Shown here: piece by piece, positions 32,009 through 33,197 of the stretch
Numbering within the stretch: the stretch's first letter is position 1
How the letters are laid out: each line of letters begins with the position of its first letter
DNA from: Thermococcus siculi
GTDB lineage: Archaea; Methanobacteriota_B; Thermococci; Thermococcales; Thermococcaceae
Reading direction: 5' to 3'
NCBI RefSeq assembly: GCF_002214505.1
Contig: NZ_CP015103.1
Coordinates: 1,302,001 to 1,366,000, forward strand
Length of the DNA: 64,000 nucleotides
Program-made: the position numbers and the translations under genes
Notes under the pieces: generated by a model
Told to the model about the DNA's origin: nothing
The model's database searches: none
Seen by the model: only the letters and a program-made list of their open reading frames with translations

Positions 32009-33085
32009 CTACCCCTCTCTCATCACTTTTTCCACAACGGGGTCTATCATCAAGTAGCGGCCGTTCTCCTTTTTTACCCAACCCATCTTCTCCAGGTTTA
32101 TGAGAAGGCTGTTTAGGCGTGCGTTAGTCACCGGGCCACCCTTGGCTTCCACGTAGTCCTTTATCTTAGACCATCTTGAAAGTCCAATTGAAATTGCCTT
32201 TAAAATCAAAGCGTAGCGAGGGGAGCGTTTTTCCAGCTCGAAAAGCTCTTCCTTTATCATTGCCCTTGCTCTGTTCAGGGTGGTCTCCATAGCCGCATTA
32301 AAGCTCCCCTTCTTCCAGTAGTTGAAGCCGAACTCCACGAGCCAGCCGGGGATTCCGTCGAGTTTGTCCACCGCTTGCATTATTTCTTCTTCCGGAACTC
32401 TAAGCCCGACTTCCTCAAAGCCCTTCCTAAGGAACTCCTCCGAGAGCTTCCTGGGAAACGGTTTTACTTCAATTTCCTCTGAGATTCTGCCGTAGAGGGG
32501 GCTGGAATAGTCGTCGATTCCGACGAAGTCATGGAGGAGACCCACTTCGGAACCCGTAAACACGAAGCCGATGTTTGGGAGTGAATCGTAGGCGTAAGCC
32601 ACTCCAGCGAGGAAGTCTTTACCTCCTCTGGAACCAAAAAAGCGTAGGTACTGCGCCTCGTCGAAGGCGATAACGACTTTTTTTCCAGTTTTTTTGCCGA
32701 GTTGCTCCATCCCGTCCAGGACGTCAACCCACGTTGATTCGCGGGGTTTTAAGTGCAGGCCTGCGAGGTTTACTCCGTCAACCTTGATTCCCCTGAGGAA
32801 ACCAACTCTGCCCCTCCCAAGGAGTATCCTGGTTATCTCGTCAACGAGCACGGCTGAGCTTATGCTGCCACTTCCAGCCGAATAGAGACGGCGGGTATCG
32901 ATGTAGATTCCAATACCCGGATATTCGTTCAAGGCAACTTTCAGCAGGGAGCTTTTTCCAACCCGTCTGATTCCTATTATAAGGCTTATAGGATACTCAC
33001 GCATTCCGTTGAGTATGCTCTCCAGTTCTTTGTCTCTGTCAAAAATCTCTTCCCTCCTTTCCTTAGGCCTTGGATCAAACAGCAT
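32009..33085 (-). CDS. Archaeal-type (PF01637-like) ATPase with winged-helix C-terminus
   Basis: A 358 aa STAND/AAA-related archaeal ATPase. Walker A is GIRRVGKSSL near residues 38-47, Walker B VVIAFDEAQYL, and sensor-like FTGSEVGLL follows. The C-terminal 80 residues (YALILKAISIGLSRWSKIKDYVEAKGG ... VKKENGRYLMIDPVV) form a winged helix, so it may bind DNA. Such ATPases are abundant and variable in Thermococcales, and their role is unsettled. Two identical dyads cover its promoter and ribosome binding site (33089-33123), pointing to tight and possibly self-made control. Confidence 0.82.
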   Translation of the reverse strand: MLFDPRPKERREEIFDRDKELESILNGMREYPISLIIGIRRVGKSSLLKVALNEYPGIGIYIDTRRLYSAGSGSISSAVLVDEITRILLGRGRVGFLRGIKVDGVNLAGLHLKPRESTWVDVLDGMEQLGKKTGKKVVIAFDEAQYLRFFGSRGGKDFLAGVAYAYDSLPNIGFVFTGSEVGLLHDFVGIDDYSSPLYGRISEEIEVKPFPRKLSEEFLRKGFEEVGLRVPEEEIMQAVDKLDGIPGWLVEFGFNYWKKGSFNAAMETTLNRARAMIKEELFELEKRSPRYALILKAISIGLSRWSKIKDYVEAKGGPVTNARLNSLLINLEKMGWVKKENGRYLMIDPVVEKVMREG

Positions 33086-33088
33086 TTG

Positions 33089-33123
33089 GTATCGCCTCCG
33101 ATACTAAGTATCGGTACCGATAC
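33089..33123. promoter_or_regulatory. Tandem operators GTATCG-N4-CGATAC
   Basis: Two copies of the same 16-bp dyad stand side by side: GTATCG-CCTC-CGATAC (33089-33104) and GTATCG-GTAC-CGATAC (33108-33123), with a 3-nt spacer and centres 19 bp apart, about two helical turns. The second is embedded in a perfect 20-bp palindrome (33106-33125). The first begins four bases before the ATPase start codon and covers its GGAGG. A repressor bound here would block both initiation and translation signals. Confidence 0.7.
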
Positions 33124-33157
33124 TTAAGGGTTTCTATGGGCGGGTTCTTCACCCCAA

Positions 33158-33185
33158 CCCTAAAATACCCCCTCCCCCAAAACCC
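33158..33185 (-). other. G-quadruplex-type motif (minus strand)
   Basis: On the minus strand four G runs of 3, 5, 5 and 3 bases are separated by loops of 4, 1 and 7 bases, the canonical intramolecular quadruplex pattern; a further GGGG lies just beyond. It sits in the 5' region of the aldolase gene, on its template strand. Formation in the cell is not shown. Confidence 0.45.
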
Positions 33186-33197
33186 TCCGGTGGTTCC

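Follow-up and report, generated by a model that had tools for sequence, protein, structure and literature searches.

Tandem dyads at the promoter of a Thermococcus PF01637 ATPase: a predicted private operator within a family of archaeal STAND/Orc-like ATPases

The PF01637 ATPases of hyperthermophilic archaea are a large and uncharacterised family of paralogues, related in structure to Orc1/Cdc6, Apaf-1 and plant immune receptors. The closest described members to the one examined here are 2QEN (PABY2304, a Walker-type ATPase of Pyrococcus abyssi; phmmer E = 1e-106, Foldseek TM-score 0.87) and 2FNA (SSO1545 of Sulfolobus solfataricus; phmmer E = 4e-55, TM-score 0.79; both TM-scores normalised by query length). 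Both belong to the same family as our ATPase, have the same fold along its full length and share its build of an AAA+ domain plus a winged helix; for neither is an operator or autoregulation described in the accessible literature. SSO1545 has been grouped with Cdc6/Orc1, Apaf-1, CED-4 and NLRC4 (PMC4599002). Outside the family, the next-best fold is that of the archaeal Orc1/Cdc6 initiators (Foldseek E about 2e-9), which are likewise AAA+ ATPases with a C-terminal winged helix, and whose origin-bound structure 2QBY is among the Foldseek neighbours. They differ in sequence (identity about 15%) and in their sites, which are origin boxes there and private promoter dyads at the cognate gene here. 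As no Orc1/Cdc6 family was found among its Pfam matches, the ATPase is a fold relative of these initiators, not a family member. STAND regulators such as MalT and proteins of the NLR/Apaf-1 type are also fold neighbours (CED-4, Apaf-1, a maltose-system regulator and plant NLRs, by Foldseek); unlike these, our ATPase has no C-terminal sensor repeats, and its own promoter is its only predicted target.

The gene lies at 33085..32009 on the minus strand of the window, by which we mean the whole 64,000-nucleotide stretch of Thermococcus siculi DNA that was analysed. Its 358-residue product had been described as a PF01637-like ATPase ending in a winged helix, and both parts of that description are borne out: the protein matches the PF01637 AAA+/STAND-type domain (E = 1.6e-21; 77.6 bits against a curated cut-off of 33.2), and residues 285-344 match PF21100, the MCM C-terminal winged-helix model (E = 7e-13). 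In an AlphaFold2 model (pLDDT 89.4, pTM 0.86), the winged helix spans residues about 285-346, with helices at 289-299, 305-316 and 321-333 and a wing at 337-346. The third helix is the predicted recognition helix; its N-cap and first turn, residues 320-324 (TNARL), are encoded at 32114..32128 (minus strand, calculated from the ORF start at 33085).

The ATPase carries a non-canonical Walker A motif (GIRRVGKSS), a Walker B motif (hhDEAQ) and a GxP-type motif (DGIPGW), and so has all three of what we take to be the defining STAND motifs. Residues G38, R40, R41, G43, K44, S45, D142, E143, D243, G244, G247 and W248 are invariant in 45 homologues, and P246 is found in the homologue consensus. The protein consists of ATPase, helical and winged-helix parts only; STAND sensor or effector domains (TPR, WD40, LRR) are missing, and we file it as a minimal STAND-like ATPase rather than a full STAND signal protein. 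A comparison with the anti-phage defence models of PADLOC gave partial matches only, to the candidate models PDC-S27 and PDC-S01 (best E = 8e-9).

The dyads and the ATPase promoter

The initial annotation reported two GTATCG-N4-CGATAC dyads spaced 19 bp centre to centre upstream of the ATPase, and we found both there as exact matches, neither assigned to a strand. The proximal dyad, GTATCGCCTCCGATAC (GTATCG-CCTC-CGATAC), occupies 33089-33104, four bases from the ATPase start codon; the distal dyad, GTATCGGTACCGATAC (GTATCG-GTAC-CGATAC), occupies 33108-33123. The distal dyad had also been placed in a perfect palindrome of 20 bp. The palindrome is real, and reading the sequence gives it a length of 22 bp (TAAGTATCGGTACCGATACTTA, 33105-33126).

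Both dyads lie between the predicted BRE/TATA element and the start codon. This element, GAAACCCTTAAGTAT (33134-33120, minus strand), was identified from the consensus of 95 homologous promoters, cgAAA.cCTTaTAAgT; it adjoins the distal dyad, and its TATA box overlaps that dyad's left arm. Placing the transcription start at the usual archaeal distance from the TATA box puts it at about 33099-33104, within the proximal dyad, whose core is also the Shine-Dalgarno sequence of the ATPase (GGAGG, 33099-33095, minus strand). The earlier statement that the dyads cover the ribosome binding site and promoter is thus correct.

A search of the window with at most one mismatch returned two dyad matches against 0.15 expected, a number reached by 1 of 100 shuffles, and no further exact copy of GTATCG-N4-CGATAC was found elsewhere in the 2.03-Mb genome. 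We considered a chance origin of the dyads and rejected it: a three-mismatch search of the window is at background (23 against 20.6), whereas the exact matches are not.

The intergenic region that holds the dyads (33089-33197) is shared with a divergent gene of the DHDPS family (PF00701; 33198..34079, plus strand), which has a TATA-like sequence of its own, CCTAAAATACC. This neighbour is outside the ATPase/operator system, although a side effect of the operator on it is possible. It is missing upstream of some ATPase orthologues (for example, those at loci L006 and L016), and on that ground dual control of this dapA-like gene is not supported as the main role of the dyads, though it may occur.

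Conservation, classes and genomic distribution of the dyads

Promoters were gathered from ATPase homologues in Thermococcaceae genomes, and spacing was measured at 106 loci. The best dyad pair is spaced by exactly 19 bp in 104 of them, and the order of elements is constant: BRE/TATA, dyad 1 (distal), 3 bp, dyad 2 (proximal, with the Shine-Dalgarno sequence as its core), and a start codon a few bases further on. In the 95 aligned homologue promoters the operator sits between TATA and ATG. A second, independent score asks for four arms that match. Its threshold (at least 18.5 of 20) is reached by 147 of 183 homologues, which span many archaeal phyla, compared with none of 183 shuffled upstream regions and with one of 48 gene starts in the window, which is that of this ATPase. 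Outside Thermococcales, tandem dyads were found in Sulfolobales, Desulfurococcales, Caldarchaeum, Brockarchaeota, Thermoplasmata, Hecatellales and others. The tandem dyad is present at essentially every orthologue and paralogue, where its absence would have spoken against the initial annotation.

Some bins labelled Thermotogae also carry the tandem-dyad design. Homologues at eight loci (L242, L243, L253, L267, L272, L277, L278 and L282) come from bins labelled Thermotogae/Thermosipho, some with CTATCA-type dyads; these reflect either horizontal transfer or mis-binning. At one locus (L033, identical to L232), four tandem GTATCGGGGGCGATAC dyads with a 19-bp period stand upstream of the ATPase in place of two. 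Larger PF01637 paralogues (about 460 residues) have private palindromes directly before the start that are conserved among orthologues (L296-L305 and L320-L323; for example, GAGTATTATACTC-ATGAGTA in the former group), as do larger paralogues in the genome that contains the window (L117, L119 and L128); these are usually a single dyad, not a 19-bp pair.

The cores of the two dyads bear on whether the dyads act in the mRNA, where a proximal hairpin with the Shine-Dalgarno sequence in its loop would control translation as a thermosensor or when bound by protein. In nearly all cases the core of the proximal dyad is a G-rich Shine-Dalgarno sequence, and the proximal stem folds at 37 C, as such a hairpin would require. 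However, in six leaders little or no structure is left at 85 C (0 to -0.4 kcal/mol). The distal dyad, the core of which varies (CCCC, GGGG or GTAC), precedes the predicted transcription start, but it is as palindromic as the proximal dyad and shares its class. We therefore set the hairpin aside as the main reading, given its melting at 85 C and the position of the distal dyad, and consider it highly improbable.

The half-sites fall into the classes GTATCG, GTAAYG, CTTAYG, CTTGYA and CTTACC, with CTGGTGG and CTTCTG as rarer types. At every locus where a class could be assigned to both dyads, it is the same one. Half-site type differs by paralogue subfamily and tracks the ATPase tree: on a tree of the ATPase part, made without the winged helix, operator class changes six times, which is the minimum for seven classes, against a mean of 61.6 for shuffled classes. 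None of 72 sampled pairs of paralogues from the same genome share a half-site class, where about 15 would be expected at random, a contrast that is partly built in, as operator classes largely coincide with orthologous groups. To judge from these sequences, paralogues in one cell should not cross-regulate, because each has its own half-site.

Genome-wide searches covered the half-site types GTATCG, CTTAYG, GTAAYG and CTTGYR. In a search of 91 genomes, nearly all exact GTATCG dyads in Thermococcus stood at the ATPase promoter or, where the gene has been lost, at its former locus; searches with CTTAYG and GTAAYG gave the same picture, essentially without further targets, and those with CTTGYR returned a small number of additional matches, about as many as a reversed-pattern control gave. 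This distribution for GTATCG and two other types argues against an unrelated regulator with many targets, which the initial annotation had named as an outcome that would count against it. A third CTTGCA-GGGG-TGCAAG dyad was seen just past the end of a CTTGYA-class ATPase gene (L345, position 1261; 900260-900275 of the genome that contains the window).

Orphan operators, from which the ATPase gene has gone while one or two intact dyads are left at the syntenic site, were observed in other Thermococcus genomes (L327-L334, L336-L340, L342, L153, L163 and L166-L169). In most CTTAYG orphans the TATA box is damaged and dyad 1 is intact. In GTATCG orphans an adjacent 23-nt junction is conserved to the same degree as the dyads, which fits recent loss, so we did not accept the orphans as proof of another binder. 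Recent loss of the ATPase may explain them, and a second user of the sites could exist.

A mobile-element or plasmid origin of the system was also considered, and was rejected when no relatives of the ATPase system were found in the viral and plasmid collections searched. The same result bears on whether the dyads are replication-, partition- or nucleoid-type sites of an Orc1/Cdc6-like ATPase, with autoregulation secondary. Such a role would accord with the best structural neighbours after 2QEN and 2FNA, which are archaeal Orc2 and Cdc6/Orc1 (E about 2e-9, including the origin-bound 2QBY), and with arrays of up to four dyads (L033). We nevertheless judge it to have a very low probability: the sites occur almost only at the cognate promoter, at a constant position with respect to TATA and ATG; a set of many copies on one chromosome, each with its own address, does not resemble origins; and matches are absent from the viral and plasmid collections searched.

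The recognition helix and the half-site sequence

Residues 320-323 vary with operator class. TNAR accompanies GTATCG in 30 of 31 cases across three deep clades (the remaining one has TNTR); P[NK][SAP]R accompanies GTAAYG, and mostly P[ED]PR accompanies CTTAYG; ND[SA]N is found with CTTGYA and ND[AS]K with CTTACC. Only two of the 358 columns, 320 and 323, are fixed to 95% or more in every one of the five large classes while differing among at least three of them.

We used a partial Mantel scan, which controls for sequence identity over the remaining residues, across 354 windows of the protein and 35-56 clusters at three clustering cut-offs, with a register shift of one base allowed. Residues 320-324 ranked first, second and first of the 354 windows (r = 0.39, 0.35 and 0.34), with 0 of 2000 permutations reaching these values at each cut-off. 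Without the register shift, the correlation was lower (r = 0.17, 2 of 2000 permutations) and the recognition helix was not ranked first. A pairwise association test with 5-letter half-sites was discarded as misleading, as it did not separate CTTACG from CTTACC and a small number of clades dominated the outcome. Thus only the register-tolerant version, of three association scans, puts the recognition helix at the top. In a nearest-neighbour test the effect was modest: as a predictor of the operator, the helix had just a small margin over overall similarity (4.06 against 3.89 of 6, and 2.97 at random). The operator and the recognition helix are at opposite ends of the gene, and the ATPase region that lies between them on the DNA lacks the operator association; linkage is therefore no explanation for the peak at the helix. 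The association between helix and operator looks real in these alignments, and the code is not yet predictive alone.

The initial annotation had guessed that the ATPase itself might bind the dyads, and the helix/operator association lends this strong, though indirect, support. An unrelated transcription factor might instead bind them, with the ATPase merely its target, and the orphan operators that persist at some loci without the ATPase, as if otherwise used, are what such a factor would lead one to expect. It would, however, call for one dedicated single-target factor per paralogue subfamily, co-inherited through many phyla, and the half-sites vary in step with the ATPase itself, with both its gene tree and its recognition helix; we regard this explanation as very unlikely.

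Predicted autorepression and its relation to known systems

Taken together, the sequence comparisons make it probable, and in our judgement fairly strongly so, that the dyads serve the ATPase as a private operator, to which it would bind and so repress its own gene. ATPase dimers would bind the two dyads side by side, possibly cooperatively, through their C-terminal winged helices. Half-sites recur every 9-10 bp along the DNA (0, 10, 19 and 29), each about one helical turn, a spacing that would suit two adjacent dimers. Bound protein would cover the stretch from TATA box to start codon and, with both dyads occupied, would keep TBP/TFB and RNA polymerase off the promoter. Since the TATA box overlaps dyad 1 and the predicted transcription start falls in dyad 2, so that both would be covered, autorepression would be the simplest outcome. 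Binding may be modulated by ATP/ADP or ligand state; gating by ATP/ADP is plausible because the fold neighbours are mostly nucleotide-switched ATPases.

The direction of control might also differ: the ATPase, once bound to the dyads, could activate transcription, or switch between activating and repressing it, instead of simply repressing. In bacteria, STAND regulators of the MalT kind activate transcription in an ATP-dependent manner, and the Foldseek matches include a structure from the maltose regulatory system (8BOB). Against this, the dyads are placed downstream of TATA and across the predicted transcription start, where archaeal repressors usually bind; archaeal activators usually bind upstream of the BRE. 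We consider activation unlikely and favour autorepression.

More broadly, it seems to us an evenly balanced question whether STAND/Orc-like ATPases across the archaea are orthogonal, self-addressed DNA-binding switches. Each paralogue would read only its own tandem operator through a short code (residues 320-324), gated by nucleotide or ligand, and new paralogues would persist only after their operator specificity had diverged. The predicted molecular function for the family, sequence-specific DNA binding at members' own promoters, is cheaply testable, and an exact candidate DNA ligand can now be given for each family member. The natural series of protein-operator pairs lends itself to the study of insulation between paralogous regulators and, if confirmed, would provide ready-made orthogonal repressor/operator pairs for archaeal genetics.

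No operators for the PF01637 ATPase family are described in the openly available full-text literature searched; prior art may exist in subscription papers. Autoregulation is ordinary; what appears new is that STAND/Orc-like ATPases have private tandem operators throughout a family, together with a recognition helix associated with them. Archaeal autorepressors (Lrp-like, TrmB-like and Phr) have their operator between the TATA box and the start codon. Two features of an autoregulated DNA-binding repressor are found here: the operator lies between TATA and the start of the ATPase's own gene, and the recognition residues covary with it. The present system differs from the Lrp-like, TrmB-like and Phr cases in that the predicted regulator is an ATPase, and in that its many paralogues have mutually different operators.
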